Origin: Bacteroidota bacterium
GTDB lineage: Bacteria; Bacteroidota; Ignavibacteria; Ignavibacteriales; Ignavibacteriaceae
Direction of reading: 5' to 3'
Length of the DNA stretch: 64,000 nucleotides
NCBI GenBank assembly: GCA_021824565.1
Contig: JAKAKL010000067.1
Coordinates: 1 to 64,000 of the forward strand
Under the pieces are notes generated by a model. The model did not search any database. It was not told the origin of the DNA and was given only the letters and a program-made list of their open reading frames with translations. Within the stretch, counting starts at the first letter, position 1. Each line of letters begins with the position of its first letter. Positions 37,421-58,304 of this stretch are shown in pieces. The position numbers and the translations under genes were made by a program.

Positions 37421-37720
37421 TTAAATAACTTTTTCTAAAGGAACCTGGAACAATCTTATTTTGTCGTCTTCGCGAATAACATCTTTATTCAAGAGAATGA
37501 TTTTTTCGCTCAATGACGTTAAAATTTTCTCTTCCTGGATAGCGAGCATTCTAACAGAGTTGTAGCCGGGGAAAGTTCTTGTACCGAGATGCGGTTCTGT
37601 TTGATGACCTTTACCTTTAACGTTTTCCCATTCGGTGTAATAATCGATCTTAAGTTCATTAAGCATTGCATCGATTCTATCTTCTAAAATATCATGATAG
37701 ACGATAAAAACTATTTTCAT
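37421..37720 (-). CDS. PG0541-like transporter-associated (PII-like) small protein
   Basis: 99-aa 'MKIVFIVYHDILEDRIDAMLNELKIDYYTEWENVKGKGHQTEPHLGTRTFPGYNSV', located after RND permease. Confidence 0.75.
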   Translation of the reverse strand: MKIVFIVYHDILEDRIDAMLNELKIDYYTEWENVKGKGHQTEPHLGTRTFPGYNSVRMLAIQEEKILTSLSEKIILLNKDVIREDDKIRLFQVPLEKVI

Positions 37721-37742: not shown

Positions 37743-40700
37743 TTATTTCTTTTTAAAGAAGATCAGTCTTGTAAAGAGCATTTTTAAGTTTGCAAAAGTT
37801 ATGTCGTCAAGTATAGAATAAACTACAGGCACTATAAATAAAGTTAACAAGGTCGACGTAATCAATCCACCTATAACAGCCTGCCCCATCGGAGATCTGA
37901 ACTCTGCGCCTTCGCCTAAGCCCAATGCAACCGGCATCATACCGAAGATCATCGCAAAAGTTGTCATTAAAATAGGTCTAAGTCTTGTTGGTCCGGCTTT
38001 TAATAATGCATCTGTTCTTGTTAGACCTCTGCCCCTGAGAACATTGGTAAAGTCAACAAGAAGGATTCCATTTTTAGTTACCAGTCCCATCAGCATGATA
38101 ATTCCGATTAATGAAATGACAGATATAGAACTGCCGACAATCAGAAGCATTATCACCGCGCCGATAATTGACATCGGCAGCGCAAGCATTATTGAAAATG
38201 GATGAACAAAGCTGTCGAATTGTGCGGCAAGAACTATATACACGAAAATAACCGCTAAAGCCAGCGAGAGCATAATATTTCCGAAAGCTTCTTCCTGCTG
38301 CTGCCCTTCTCCAACAACACTAACGGAATAACCCGGCTCGAATTTAATATCTTTAGTCTTCTTCATAATATCATTTAAAACATCTCCTAAAAATCTTCCC
38401 GTAATGTTTGCGTCAACACGAATTTCTTTTTGCCGTGCATACCGGTTTATCTGTGAAGGACCAACACCTTGATCAATCTTTGCAATATCCGATACCGGAA
38501 CGATTATAGGACTTCCATCAGAATAATTTTTAGTGCTTTTTAAAGTTAAGTCATATAGATTCTCAACTTTCATCCGATCATCTTTTTTCAATCTAACCCT
38601 AACGTCATACTGTTCGTCGCCTTCTTGATATTGGGTTGCCACGTAGCCGTCCACCATTGCGCGCACCGAAGACGCAAGCAAATACGGGTTAATCCCGAGA
38701 TCAGATGCTTTTTCTCTATCGATGACGAGGCGTATTTCAGGCTTCGAAGTCTCCAAACTATTTTCGACATCGACCGTTCCGCGAGTATTTTTTACAATGT
38801 CTTCAACTTGATCAGCGTATTTAGAAAGCTTTGCTATATCCTCACCTCGGATGCTTAGAGTAATAGGCTTTGCGCTGCCGCCTGGTCCGCCAGGCATAAG
38901 AAAGCTAACGTCTGCGCCTGGAATTAACTGCACTTTCTTCCTAAGCTCTGTAATGATTTGCTTATCACTTTTAGATCTATCTTTCTTATTAACAAGCTTG
39001 ACAAGAATGTTTGCCTTAGTTACCGGATCATTGGAGGAACCTATCGTTGTTAAGATTGTTGTAACCTCCGGATAATTGTTTAACATCGTTTCAATCTGCT
39101 GACAGATATTGCTTGTTTGTTCTATTGAACTGCCGGGCGCAGCGTTAACAACAATGTTAAATTCATTTTCATCGCTGTCCGGGAAGAATTGACTTCCCAT
39201 ACTACCCATCAGCATAAAGCTTATTATAAAAACTACGAACGAAGATGTAACGACTATTTTTCTATGAGACAGCGCCCATTTAAGAGCGGTTTGATATTTA
39301 ATACTGAGGACTTCAAAAAAGTGGTTGAAGTAAAAGAGGATTTTATTTTTAATATTGCCTTGTTTAGAAAGAGCTTCATCTTCTCTTTTCAGCCATCTCG
39401 AAGACAGCATAGGTGTTAAAGTAAAAGCGACAAACAATGAAACAAGAACTGCCACAGAAATAGTAATTCCGAACTGATAAAAAAATCTTCCCACAATACC
39501 AGGCATAAAAGCTACAGGAATAAAAACGGCAACGATTGTAAAGGTTGTAGCCATAACAGCAAGCCCTATTTCATCAGATGCTGATTTAGCAGCCTCCAGA
39601 GGCGTTTCTCCTTGACTCATGTGGCGGTAGATATTTTCAATCACTACAATTGCATCGTCGATTAAAAGTCCAACAGCTAACGATAGTGCAAGAAGCGACA
39701 TCATATTTAAAGTAAAATTTAAAGCGTACATTATAATAAAGCTTGCAATAATCGAGGAAGGAAGTGCAAAGGCGCTAATTACCGTCGCTCTAAAATTTGA
39801 GAGGAAAAGATAAATTACAATAACTGCGAGCAGACCGCCGTAGAATATATCAAACAAAACATCATTGATTGAATCTCTAATAAAAACGCTATTGTCCTGC
39901 GCGAGCGAAATATGAATATCCGGAGGAAGCTCCGCTCTTATTTTATCTAACTGCTTTTTGACATCGGAGGCTACTTTAACCGTGTTGCTGCCTGACTGCT
40001 TAATTATGTTTAGCCCCGCCGCAATGCTCCCGTTGACGCGTGTAACGCTTACCTGTTCTTTCGTACCATCCACAACATCGGCAACATCAGACAGATAGAC
40101 CGGTTTGCCTTCATGCCTCGCTACTATAACACTGTTAAAATCATTGACGTTTTTATATTTTCCCATTGTTCTGAGAAGCAGCTGCTGAGGACCATTGATT
40201 AAATTTCCTCCCGGGATTTCAACATTAGAAGCGCCGACGTTCTGGATTATATCATTTATCGAAATTCCATAAGCTTTCAGTTTTTCAGCGTCAACTTCAA
40301 CTTGAATCTCTCTTTCTGCGCCGCCAACTAAATCTACCGAACCTACACCCGGAATATTTTCCAATCTCTTCTTGACAATATTTTTTGTTATTGTAGTTAT
40401 TTCTTTTGCCGATCTGCCTCCTGATACTGTTAATGACATTATAGGCAGGCTTGCCGGATCATACCGCTGGATAATTGGTTCCTTCATATCGGTTGGCATA
40501 TCTGATCTTATTGCCGCAAGCTTTTCGCGGACATCCTGTGCGGCTACTTTTCCATCAACCTCAAGTTTGAAAGCTATAACAACAATTGAAACTCCTTCTC
40601 TTGAATATGATTGGATCCAATCAACTCCTGAAATCGGATTAACCGCATCTTCAATTTTTTTGGTAACGTCTGTTTCGATTTGCTCTGGACCTGCGCCGGG

Positions 40701-40853
40701 TAGAACCGTTGTGATAATAACATAAGGTATATCAACATCAGGATAAAGATCAACATTTAGTTTGATATAGGAAAAAAGTCCTAAAACAATAAGCGCCATA
40801 ATCATCATCGTTGCGAAAACCGGGCGCCGGATCGATACGTCAGCTAATTTCAT
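37743..40853 (-). CDS. efflux RND transporter permease
   Basis: 1036 aa; 'SIRRPVFATMMIMALIVLGLFSYIKL', 'SLAVGLLIDDAIVVIENIYRH', 'MLMGLVTKNGILLVDF'. Confidence 0.97.
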   Translation of the reverse strand: MKLADVSIRRPVFATMMIMALIVLGLFSYIKLNVDLYPDVDIPYVIITTVLPGAGPEQIETDVTKKIEDAVNPISGVDWIQSYSREGVSIVVIAFKLEVDGKVAAQDVREKLAAIRSDMPTDMKEPIIQRYDPASLPIMSLTVSGGRSAKEITTITKNIVKKRLENIPGVGSVDLVGGAEREIQVEVDAEKLKAYGISINDIIQNVGASNVEIPGGNLINGPQQLLLRTMGKYKNVNDFNSVIVARHEGKPVYLSDVADVVDGTKEQVSVTRVNGSIAAGLNIIKQSGSNTVKVASDVKKQLDKIRAELPPDIHISLAQDNSVFIRDSINDVLFDIFYGGLLAVIVIYLFLSNFRATVISAFALPSSIIASFIIMYALNFTLNMMSLLALSLAVGLLIDDAIVVIENIYRHMSQGETPLEAAKSASDEIGLAVMATTFTIVAVFIPVAFMPGIVGRFFYQFGITISVAVLVSLFVAFTLTPMLSSRWLKREDEALSKQGNIKNKILFYFNHFFEVLSIKYQTALKWALSHRKIVVTSSFVVFIISFMLMGSMGSQFFPDSDENEFNIVVNAAPGSSIEQTSNICQQIETMLNNYPEVTTILTTIGSSNDPVTKANILVKLVNKKDRSKSDKQIITELRKKVQLIPGADVSFLMPGGPGGSAKPITLSIRGEDIAKLSKYADQVEDIVKNTRGTVDVENSLETSKPEIRLVIDREKASDLGINPYLLASSVRAMVDGYVATQYQEGDEQYDVRVRLKKDDRMKVENLYDLTLKSTKNYSDGSPIIVPVSDIAKIDQGVGPSQINRYARQKEIRVDANITGRFLGDVLNDIMKKTKDIKFEPGYSVSVVGEGQQQEEAFGNIMLSLALAVIFVYIVLAAQFDSFVHPFSIMLALPMSIIGAVIMLLIVGSSISVISLIGIIMLMGLVTKNGILLVDFTNVLRGRGLTRTDALLKAGPTRLRPILMTTFAMIFGMMPVALGLGEGAEFRSPMGQAVIGGLITSTLLTLFIVPVVYSILDDITFANLKMLFTRLIFFKKK

Positions 40854-40876: not shown

Positions 40877-40903
40877 ATTGAATAACGAATATCGAACAAG
40901 GAA
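40877..40903 (+). repeat. left inverted repeat of S23/four-helix-bundle cassette
   Basis: ATTGAATAACGAATATCGAACAAGGAA; 22/27 to reverse complement of 41316-41342. Confidence 0.75.
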
Positions 40904-40937
40904 TTTCGGATGTTGAAAAAATATAAATATCGAAGAA

Positions 40938-41291
40938 TTATTTATTCTTTTTTGCCGTTAAAATACTCTTTACAAAAATCGCTATTAGCTCATTATTTTC
41001 ATTTAATGCTGATACTAATAATTCTTTCTGTTTCAAGAAATTTTTATAATTAATTATTTTAAGAGCCGCAAAATTCTCTCTTAATTCTTTCAGACAAATT
41101 TTCATTTTATAAACAAAGTCATTTCTCGACTCTGCGCTCTGAGCTTCTGCATAATTTAATGCCGGTGAAGTTCTTGAACGTATTATTTGCCCGCCAAGAT
41201 AATTTGCAGCTTTTGTGTTTGGCAAAGCTTCGACAATTTCAATAACTTTAAGTGAAAAGTCTAGTAATCGTTTTTCAATATCATATTTCAT
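40938..41291 (-). CDS. four helix bundle protein (S23 / 23S rRNA-intervening-sequence-protein-like)
   Basis: 'DFSLKVIEIVEALPNTKAANYLGGQIIRSRTSPALNYAEAQSAESRNDFVYKMKICLKELRE' family pattern. Confidence 0.88.
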   Translation of the reverse strand: MKYDIEKRLLDFSLKVIEIVEALPNTKAANYLGGQIIRSRTSPALNYAEAQSAESRNDFVYKMKICLKELRENFAALKIINYKNFLKQKELLVSALNENNELIAIFVKSILTAKKNK

Positions 41292-41315
41292 TTCAAATTA
41301 TTTTTACATTTAATA

Positions 41316-41342
41316 TTCTTTATTCGAAATTGGATATTCAAT
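41316..41342 (-). repeat. right inverted repeat of S23/four-helix-bundle cassette
   Basis: TTCTTTATTCGAAATTGGATATTCAAT; inverted partner of 40877-40903. Confidence 0.75.
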
Positions 41343-41367: not shown

Positions 41368-42408
41368 TTATTCCATTATTTTAACAACGCTTCCCTCTTT
41401 TAAATTATTCATACCGAGCGTAATCACTGTTTCGCCTTCTTTCAATCCGCTCAATATTTCGGTTGATTCGTCATTTGATAATCCGGTCTTTACTATTCTG
41501 AAAGAAGCTTTATTATTTTCTTCTATAAAAACGCCTTTCTGATTATCCTGAAACACAAAAGCTTTTGTCGGTATAATGAGCGAACCTTTTGCGGAATTCA
41601 TCTGAATATTTATTCTGCAGAACATTCCTGGCTTGAACCATTTGTCGGCAGTGTTGGGAAAGTTAGCTTTCACTTCAAAAGTACGCGATTGAACGTTAGC
41701 CGATTTGGATATTTGAGATATTTTTCCTTTCCGAATTATTTCCGGTCGCTGATCAGAATAAACTTCCGCGGGCTTGCCGGCAACAATATTTGGAATGTCG
41801 TTTTCATTAACGCTAAAAGATATTTTCATATTATTTATACTGGCAACTGTAGCTATAATTTTTCCTGGAACGGATAAATCACCGATGCTGCCGTCCACAA
41901 ATGTTATTACGCCCGCAATCGGTGAAGTTAACTCCACCATGCTTTTGGCAGCTTCAAAGTTGGCTTTTGAAATATCATAAGTGGTCTGAGCACCGTCCAA
42001 CATTTGTTTGGCAATTGCGCCTACTGCATAAAGCGCATTCATCCTGTCAAGGTTTTGTTTTGCATTTTCAAAAGCGGCTTTAGCCTGAAAATATTGAGAC
42101 GATGCGCCCGATTTATCGAGCGATAAAATTAACTGACCCGGCTTTACTTTGTCGCCGACTTTAACATTGATCGACATTATTCTTTCCTGAATCTTCGCAA
42201 CAATGTTTGCTTGTTCTTCGCCTTCCAATGTCCCGGAAAAATTCTTAGTAAGATCAAAATCCTTCTTCTGGACTTTCACAACTTGGACAGGAACTTCATT
42301 TAATGCTGTTAGTTTATTTTTATTTGTCGCATCTGATTTATTCGTACAATCAACGTTCAGCAATCCAAAGATCAAAATAATAACAGAAAAATATTTTAGT
42401 TTTATCAT
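41368..42408 (-). CDS. efflux RND transporter periplasmic adaptor subunit
   Basis: 'VVKVQKKDFDLTKNFSGTLEGEEQANIVAKIQERIMSINVKVGDKVKPGQLILSLD' biotinyl-lipoyl/HlyD pattern; likely start MIKLKYF (42408). Confidence 0.94.
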   Translation of the reverse strand: MIKLKYFSVIILIFGLLNVDCTNKSDATNKNKLTALNEVPVQVVKVQKKDFDLTKNFSGTLEGEEQANIVAKIQERIMSINVKVGDKVKPGQLILSLDKSGASSQYFQAKAAFENAKQNLDRMNALYAVGAIAKQMLDGAQTTYDISKANFEAAKSMVELTSPIAGVITFVDGSIGDLSVPGKIIATVASINNMKISFSVNENDIPNIVAGKPAEVYSDQRPEIIRKGKISQISKSANVQSRTFEVKANFPNTADKWFKPGMFCRINIQMNSAKGSLIIPTKAFVFQDNQKGVFIEENNKASFRIVKTGLSNDESTEILSGLKEGETVITLGMNNLKEGSVVKIME

Positions 42409-42447
42409 GAAAAGCTCCTTCACTTTTATGCTAACGGAATTCAAATT

Positions 42448-43788
42448 TTAATTAATACTAACTGCATATTCCCATTCTGATTTAGCGATCAGGAAATCAT
42501 AAATCGCCTGATAGTAATTAGTCTGAGCCATTGTAAGTGCTGTCTCGGTATCGATTATCTCGAGCTGCGTTCCGATGCCGTTTTTATATCGGGTCTCAGC
42601 TATTTTCAGTGCAGTATCAGCTTGCGACAGGCTTTTCTCCTGAGCGTCAATTCTTTTTTTAGATTCTTCCATCTTCAGCAAAGATTGTTGAACCTGCACC
42701 TTCAAGCCTTCTTCCAATTTACTTCTGCCGATCGCGACTTTTTCTTTGTCGATGATCGCCTGCTCAACTCTTGCTCCTCTTCCAAAGCCGTCGAACAACG
42801 TGTAGCTCAATTGAAGACCCACCATGAAGCTTTTTGCCCAATTATAATTTTTCACGTTCCATGTGTTATCCTGTGACTGATATTGATATTGTCCGAAAAA
42901 AGCCAAAGTGGGAAAATAATCCGCTCTTTGAATAATAATATTTTTGTCAAGCAGAGATTCCTGAATTCTTAATTGCTGCACTAACGGATTATTATTAACA
43001 GAATTGCTTACGGCATTCACTACTTTTTCCTGCGGAACTTCATGATAGGAAAAATCGCCAACTATTTTAATTGGAGTTTTGATATCGATAGTTAGAAGAT
43101 TTTTTAAAACGCTTTTAGCAAGCTCAAGATTATTTTCAGCTTGTATTAAAGCCGGCTGAACGTTTGCCAGCTGCACTTCTGATCTGAGCAGATCAAACTG
43201 TGATGAGACGCCTTGCTTGAACAGCGCAGTAACATTTTCATAATTTGATTTAGCAGATTCATAACTTCTCTGTGTTACATTAACTATTTGTTCCGCCATC
43301 AAGATTGAATAAAACGCTCTTTTAATTGAAAGTGCAATTGATTGTTTTGTAGCTTTGCTGCCAGCTTCGGAATAGTTTGCATACTCGCCGGCAATTTTTA
43401 TAGCGGTATTTACTTTCTGACTATATAATACCTGTGTTAATCCAAGCGTCCCAGCGAAACTATTTTTAGAGCCAAGTTCAATTGTTTCTGTATTTGGAGT
43501 TGGATTAAAAGGATTGTTGGGGGGAATAAACAATACGGGTAGTAATATATTTCTAGTATAATTGCCTGTAAAGTCTATCCTGGGAAAAGCATTTGAATAA
43601 GCCTCGCTAATCTGCTCCTGCGATCTATTAATATCTTTCTGCGCTAACTGAACGTCCCAGTTATCTGCCAATGCCTTTGCAATAGCCTGTTCAAGAGTAT
43701 AGGACAGCGTATCATGTTGTGCCGATACTTTAGAGGCGCAAATAAACGACAGCGTCAAAATAGAAATAAAAATAAAAGACTTTATCAT
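42448..43788 (-). CDS. TolC family outer membrane protein
   Basis: Signal peptide; 'LSYTLEQAIAKALADNWDVQLAQKDINRSQEQISEAYSNAFPRIDFTGNYT'. Confidence 0.94.
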   Translation of the reverse strand: MIKSFIFISILTLSFICASKVSAQHDTLSYTLEQAIAKALADNWDVQLAQKDINRSQEQISEAYSNAFPRIDFTGNYTRNILLPVLFIPPNNPFNPTPNTETIELGSKNSFAGTLGLTQVLYSQKVNTAIKIAGEYANYSEAGSKATKQSIALSIKRAFYSILMAEQIVNVTQRSYESAKSNYENVTALFKQGVSSQFDLLRSEVQLANVQPALIQAENNLELAKSVLKNLLTIDIKTPIKIVGDFSYHEVPQEKVVNAVSNSVNNNPLVQQLRIQESLLDKNIIIQRADYFPTLAFFGQYQYQSQDNTWNVKNYNWAKSFMVGLQLSYTLFDGFGRGARVEQAIIDKEKVAIGRSKLEEGLKVQVQQSLLKMEESKKRIDAQEKSLSQADTALKIAETRYKNGIGTQLEIIDTETALTMAQTNYYQAIYDFLIAKSEWEYAVSIN

Positions 43789-55951: not shown

Positions 55952-56021
55952 CCTTACTCGTTACTTGTCACTCGTTACTCGTAACTCGTTACTTGTCACT
56001 TGTCACTCGTTACTTGCCGCT
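55952..56021. repeat. 7-bp tandem repeat array
   Basis: CCTTACT CGTTACT TGTCACT CGTTACT CGTAACT CGTTACT TGTCACT TGTCACT CGTTACT TGCCGCT. Confidence 0.9.
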
Positions 56022-57765: not shown

Positions 57766-57792
57766 TGTAGAGACGACCCGCTGGGTCGTCTC
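57766..57792. repeat. REP type A palindrome
   Basis: TGTA-GAGACGACCC-GCT-GGGTCGTCTC; last base is part of the transposase stop codon. Confidence 0.88.
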
Positions 57793-58304
57793 TAACGCCT
57801 ATAATATTCATCAACCTCCCATTTTGCCGGATTATATTCTATATATTTTCTAATACTATCTAACGATCTCTCGCTCCTGATTATATGATCATAATACCTT
57901 GCCTGCCATCCGAATTCATGATCTCCATTTTCCTTTATTCTTTTTGTAACCACGGATTTATACTGTCCGACAATTGAGCCTAATGAATTGCTTAATAATT
58001 TCTTGTCATTTGGTTCTTCTTCTAATGCAGCATCTGAGTTTATTATAATTATTCCATGAATATGGTTGGGCATTATTACATATTCATCCAAATCCACATT
58101 ACTTCTAATTTGTTTTGTTTTTAACCACTCTTCTTCCGCAATTTTTCCAAAATCATTTAACTTAGATTCTGAATCCTTCACGCCGCCGAAAAAACATTTC
58201 CTCTCCTTAGTCAAAATCGTTATATAATAATATGCGCCGTTTCTATAGTCCTAGTTTTTTAATCTGGCAGTTTCGATGCGATATTTATTTCTAAACAGAA
58301 ACAT
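57792..58304 (-). pseudogene. RAYT/IS200-like (Y1) transposase with in-frame TAG at codon 18
   Basis: 'VIMPNHIHGIIII' HUH motif, 'GWQARYYDHIIRSERSLDSIRKYIEYNPAKWEVDEYY'; upstream same-frame reading MFLFRNKYRIETARLKN*DYRNGAYYYITILTKERKC with TAG at 58251-58253. Confidence 0.82.

Follow-up and report, generated by a model that had tools for sequence, protein, structure and literature searches.

Why does a gene for a small four-helix-bundle protein, enclosed by an inverted repeat, lie between the adaptor and permease genes of an RND efflux operon? The locus is part of a window of 64,000 nucleotides (that is, the whole stretch of DNA analysed), in which ORFs and Pfam/NCBIfam profiles defined a minus-strand operon comprising an OEP/TolC gene (42448-43788), an HlyD/RND periplasmic adaptor gene (41368-42444), an S23/IVP ORF (40938-41291), an AcrB-type RND permease gene (37743-40853) and a gene of the PG0541 family (37421-37720). 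This order matches that of the initial annotation (tolC, adaptor, four-helix-bundle gene, permease, PG0541-like gene). The S23 ORF encodes 117 amino acids with a net charge of +7 and is a member of the S23/IVP family by the curated cut-offs of both TIGR02436 (71.2 bits; cut-off 24) and PF05635 (43.2 bits; cut-off 33.8). Its AF2 model (pLDDT 92.7) has four helices and resembled the S23 structures 2rld and 2gsc in Foldseek (TM 0.80-0.88), whereas its similarity to Avd 4dwl and DGR RT-Avd 8ube was more distant (TM 0.74-0.83, E about 0.1); another S23 protein of the same genome matched the PHROG Avd family (E 2.7e-11). Profiles, model and structural comparison agree on the S23/IVP type and Avd-like fold that had been proposed from the letters of the DNA. 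No Rfam family matched within the window, and a defence system was rejected as the identity of the feature, as no PADLOC match was obtained.

The S23 ORF is framed by two complementary arms. In the mRNA, the 5' arm (41309-41342, minus strand) starts 25 nt after the end of the adaptor gene, and the permease gene begins 23 nt past the 3' arm (40877-40921, minus strand). Within these arms, the 27-bp segments 41316-41342 and 40877-40903 are identical in inverted orientation at 22 of 27 positions, and the 22 Watson-Crick pairs plus one G-U pair described initially for the operon mRNA could be read directly from the sequence. With four mismatches and one G-U in 27 the arms are decayed; they were missed by a repeat search because this search extends from exact 9-base seeds. 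What the initial annotation overlooked is the heptameric nature of the arms, which are decayed tandem arrays of GAATATC-like 7-bp units (lag-7 p 0.004 for the 5' arm and 0.017 for the 3' arm). The 5' arm can be divided into ATT GAATATC CAATTTC GAATAAA GAATATT AAA, and the 3' arm, read on the plus strand, into ATT GAATAAC GAATATC GAACAAG GAATTTC GGATGTT GAAAAAA. The local-alignment score of the arm pairing (16.0) was reached by 3 of 5000 dinucleotide shuffles of both intergenic flanks, and the 3' flank was the best partner of its own 5' flank (rank 1 among 83 loci). RNAfold, a check suggested at the outset, predicted that the arms pair around the whole S23 gene (MFE -102.6 kcal/mol, z -2.56, none of 100 shuffles as good).

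By strength of 7-bp periodicity, the two arms took the second and third places in the whole 64-kb window. The strongest stretch was an array at about 55953-56014 (minus strand; about nine units of GTAACGA/GTGACAA), which is better preserved than the S23 arms and has neither an inverted partner nor an S23 gene. It directly follows the stop codon of a short, seemingly truncated ORF, and its unit is similar to that of a cassette elsewhere in the same genome (L004). About 1.8 kb from this array lies an ORF (57792-58214, minus strand) for a Y1_Tnp transposase of IS200-like or REP-associated-like type (PF01797, 29.8 bits; REP_Tyr, 57 bits, under the cut-off).

The initial annotation had proposed that a cassette entered a protein-coding operon and that an empty site should be sought in relatives. 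In each of the 20 relatives with the operon, the adaptor-permease junction lacked an S23 gene, 19 of these junctions being empty and one containing a gene-less hairpin. Thus, the S23 copy of the window is an insertion, as had been suspected. This gene-less inverted hairpin, found in another genus (L018 in G019), has heptamer-like arms of CTTAGTG type. At L111 (G026:C40:66203-66526), an S23 gene lies directly upstream of an RND adaptor gene in a similar type of operon, where arms were not detected.

Presence and absence could also be followed at other sites. One Chryseobacterium junction, readable in 29 species, contained full cassettes (gap of 442-516 nt), decayed cassettes (120-311 nt), gene-less hairpins of ∼99 nt with a differing unit (GGGATTA) and near-empty sites (41-42 nt), and species that were 94-95% identical in the flanking gene had differing cassette states. 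Precise filled and empty pairs were found on cyanobacterial plasmids (L299 and L304 vs L300 and L306). The empty site reads GTTAAAAAGTAATTAACAAATAAATATG in both L300 and L306, whereas the filled site in L299 reads GTTAAAAAGTAAT-AAATCAGAATTCAG...S23...CTTCTTT-GTAATTAACAAATAAATATG. The insert in L299 is about 428 bp long and has a 5-bp duplication, GTAAT, which includes the upstream stop codon. It should be noted that a target duplication was clear at this one site only (L299/L300), further cyanobacterial sites being compatible but ambiguous. In a Nostoc plasmid operon, the X-Y junction was filled in L309, L310 and L321 and empty in L311, L319 and L320, whereas the Y-Z junction contained a differing cassette in L311 and was empty in L309, L310, L319, L320 and L321. 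On an Aulosira plasmid (L308, compared with L316-L318), a cassette is inserted into a coding gene at its 3' end; the final codons of this gene are replaced by a stop codon directly at the edge of the array.

The 27-bp ends had been expected to recur around other S23 genes, which was not the case: their sequence is private to the window copy. The source genome has nine S23 genes, most of which lie between inverted heptamer arrays whose unit is private to the locus (GTAACGA in L004, GAAGACA in L005, AATTNTG in L006, GTTTGTA/G in L008, AAGTTCA in L009 and AGCGCAT in L012). The end sequence of the window copy is absent around the other genes, as the heptamer varies from locus to locus, and the feature that recurs is a mutually matching pair of inverted 7-bp arrays. 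Treating the lack of recurring ends as a refutation of the cassette, as proposed initially, would mislead, since the heptamer is private to each locus and the architecture is common. One contig (C60 of G000) carries three S23 genes in 12 kb; on this contig, a broken S23 gene (L011) is preceded at a distance of ∼330 bp by a GTCAGAA heptamer array, which seemingly lies inside an aminotransferase-like coding sequence.

This architecture was examined in 160 S23 loci, comprising 83 loci of the window's order and a named set of 77 loci obtained by scanning genomes of bacteria and archaea with a consensus-led alignment. The named set covered Bacteroidota, Acidobacteria, Nitrospirae, Planctomycetes, Chloroflexi, Clostridia, Cyanobacteria, Proteobacteria, Patescibacteria, one Methanophagales archaeon and others. 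For each locus, the upstream flank was aligned with the reverse-complemented downstream flank of the same locus and scored. For the 83 loci of the order, the own-arm median was 16.5, compared with 8.5 for mismatched loci and 9.0 for the direct orientation (p 4e-36), and self-identity was 0.38/0.37 at lag 7 and 0.37/0.34 at lag 14, compared with 0.26 further out. The 77 named loci gave similar values (own-arm median 17.5 vs 8.0 for mismatched loci, p 5e-36; lag 7 0.39/0.38). RAYT genes, used as a positive control, had strong inverted ends (15.75 vs 8.5) but no lag-7 signal in their flanks; thus, the 7-bp periodicity goes with S23. Some S23 loci (for example, L007 and L111) lacked detectable arms. 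The heptamer units were strand-polar, with one position at which G reached 0.91, and a position-specific heptamer consensus was only modestly better than a column-shuffled null. On plasmid pANA02 of Anabaena sp. 90 (L298), an S23 gene preceded by a very long heptamer-type array of AGGTGACAGGGAACAG units separates cas6 from cas4 in a type I-D CRISPR operon.

The orientation of the cassettes was biased. In the window's order, the upstream neighbour was on the S23 strand at 79 of 81 loci, and S23 genes located between two co-directional genes shared their direction by 64 to 1 (48 to 6 in the named set). The RAYT control loci also leaned towards co-directionality (29 of 36 upstream neighbours). 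Co-directionality supports, but does not prove, a reading at the RNA level, since ordinary operon genes are also co-directional. Relative to the first base of the upstream stop codon, the median array start was +6 nt (between -6 and +12 in 58 of 97 cases), and the median distance from the array end to the next ATG was 17.5 nt. We do not claim that the arrays target stop codons, because short intergenic gaps and selection could yield the same median start. Provision of in-frame stop codons was also rejected as the purpose of the 7-nt period, as many units (for example, AGGCACA) contain none.

At sites shared by orthologues, the two arms diverge in concert: the own-arm match was 15.3, compared with 12.8 for the cross match (p 0.011), and at one such site the units were AGTTGCTG in L168 and GCAAAGT in L143. 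In the gene-less hairpins, a 21-pair stem was kept, in which both partners had changed in four pairs and the covariation term was -0.06, which would favour pairing weakly. Similarity of the S23 proteins did not predict the heptamer sequence (Mantel r -0.03), and the idea that the protein sets the heptamer was therefore rejected. As regards the protein itself, dN/dS between intact Chryseobacterium copies was about 0.07, although many copies in neighbouring species had decayed; this ratio indicates purifying selection on S23 at that site, and thus the protein is of some use to the element or the host.

A known counterpart is the 23S rRNA IVS that encodes S23p in Coxiella and Leptospira (PMC4990558). 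The Coxiella IVS has a 28-bp terminal stem, is excised by RNase III and contains three tandem heptamers (GACAGAT) ahead of the S23 ORF (PMC4990558). In the window, likewise, an S23-family ORF is enclosed by complementary termini (27 nt) with tandem heptamers adjoining it, and the sporadic presence and absence seen in the relatives, in Chryseobacterium and on cyanobacterial plasmids is shared with 23S IVS. On the other hand, 23S IVS are located in rRNA helices 9, 25 or 45, whereas the window cassette sits in the RND operon and not in a 23S or 16S rRNA gene, and the other copies studied also lie between protein-coding genes; none of several conserved 23S oligonucleotides was present in the S23 loci. 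In addition, S23 is decaying in the Coxiella IVS, in contrast with its strong purifying selection at the Chryseobacterium site. We consider, with a probability of about 0.68, that the window feature is an IVS-like S23 insertion element of about 0.4-0.5 kb, consisting of one S23/IVP gene between two inverted degenerate-heptamer arrays that would form a stem in the operon mRNA, with the gene in the loop. The analysis established the insertion, its anatomy and its orientation, as well as the purifying selection on S23 and the concerted change of the arms. The mobile, IVS-like cassette of the initial annotation is supported in part, namely in its insertion, S23 type and IVS anatomy.

Several other explanations have to be weighed against this insertion element. 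It is highly improbable that S23 is an ordinary, vertically inherited operon gene and the inverted repeat a chance match in AT-rich intergenic DNA. S23 does persist across genera at some sites (for example, a Flavobacterium-Sphingobacterium-Aquimarina site), and its purifying selection would fit vertical inheritance; for the window copy, however, this reading is already contradicted by the 20 S23-free relatives, by the rarity of equally good arm pairing among shuffles (3 of 5000) and by the same architecture in 160 loci. The arrays could hardly owe their existence to a regulatory G-quadruplex role, as proposed for Xanthomonas GGGAATC, with the S23 gene being incidental. GGGAATC arrays form G4 in vitro, lie between aligned ORFs near stop codons and are transcribed, with 70-75 inverted pairs among them per Xanthomonas genome (PMC4692102); the paper explains them by G-quadruplexes and has no mention of S23. 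Together with Nostoc GGGGA(C/T)T (PMC4692102) and the cyanobacterial STRR, they share with the cassettes the 7-bp tandem repetition and inverted pairs, and like the heptameric repeats (PMC4692102) the cassettes are intergenic, between co-directional, aligned ORFs and close to stop codons. However, a G3 quadruplex pattern was found in only 13 of 320 arm flanks, and the window arms contain no GGG; a G-quadruplex role thus fails as a general explanation. The S23 cassettes differ from these repeats in that their unit is not fixed in sequence; what they have in common is the pairing and the S23 gene.

A hairpin transposon acting at the DNA level and moved in trans by an HUH/Y1 (RAYT-like) transposase, in the manner of REPINs, appears unlikely; here pairing would matter in ssDNA and not in RNA. 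Like REPIN/RAYT systems, the cassettes are short, hairpin-ended intergenic elements that are possibly non-autonomous, and in 59 genomes of the window's order (uncorrected for phylogeny) S23 copy number correlated with that of Y1_Tnp (rho 0.53) and of REP_Tyr transposases (rho 0.59, partial 0.55, permutation p 0.0005), whereas no correlation was observed with DDE_Tnp_1 (rho 0.03). Against this, RAYT genes carry REP palindromes without 7-bp periodicity and without an S23 gene, and thus RAYT and S23, whose arms are 7-periodic arrays, do not have ends in common. Furthermore, S23 was present in three genomes in which Y1 was not detected (G002, G032 and G036), and the 5-bp target duplication at L299/L300 is unusual for HUH enzymes. 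Very unlikely is a retro-element, in which an Avd-like S23 protein would act with a reverse transcriptase in trans and the cassette would move through RNA. The PHROG Avd match of the genome-mate protein, the resemblance of the model to 4dwl and 8ube, the four-helix-bundle fold common to S23 and DGR Avd and the co-directional insertion would be in line with it. However, the neighbours of the window gene are RND genes, with no adjacent reverse transcriptase or template/variable repeat, unlike in diversity-generating retroelements; S23 copy number was not correlated with RVT_1 (rho 0.07, 59 genomes), and no RVT_1 match was found in the single-contig genomes G013 (20 S23 genes), G018, G054 and G056. 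An RVT_1 reverse transcriptase in trans was thus rejected as a general requirement. Finally, and compatible with the IVS-like insertion element, the heptamers are tentative candidates for binding sites of an S23 pentamer (about one unit per subunit, cf. TRAP on RNA), serving autoregulation or packaging of the element. The five chains in crystals 2rld and 2gsc, which are relatives of the window protein, the regular 7-nt spacing, the strand polarity of the units and the +7 charge are consistent with such binding, whereas the modest advantage of the consensus over its null and the Mantel result speak against it; given the latter, any recognition by S23 must concern spacing or a minimal AG-like core.

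For the IVS-like insertion element, we propose the following mechanism. The heptamer is free to differ between copies, both arms of one copy remain complementary, and the elements sit in sense orientation between co-directional genes or just inside a gene end. Most likely, the arms pair in the polycistronic mRNA and loop out the S23 ORF, which would bring the neighbouring reading frames back together, and the insertion would thus be of little cost to the host. The stem formed by the arms is probably open to cleavage by RNase III, by analogy with 23S rRNA IVS, and the S23 pentamer probably binds the RNA or DNA of its own element and probably serves its spread or maintenance. The clean filled and empty pairs, such as Trichormus plasmid C compared with the Microchaete or Nostoc carneum plasmids, and likewise the series of 29 Chryseobacterium species, make this reading testable.

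We found no paper among open-access full texts that joins S23 genes, rRNA IVS and heptamer repeats. The chances seem evenly balanced that S23 cassettes are among the most widespread undescribed mobile elements in bacteria and archaea, known by their self-complementary arrays and not by an end sequence, inserting between translated genes near stop codons and folding out of the mRNA, with rRNA IVS and the STRR and GGGAATC repeats as special cases or remains. Such a view would link three old puzzles, namely the function of the S23/IVP protein, the IVS of bacterial rRNA genes and the scattered short heptamer repeats, and it poses the evolutionary question of how two arms separated by 400 bp can switch to a new repeat unit jointly and yet remain complementary. 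If it is true, many of the small S23 genes that lie in intergenic regions and are annotated as 'four helix bundle protein' would form the coding portion of an insertion element able to tolerate a location within operons.
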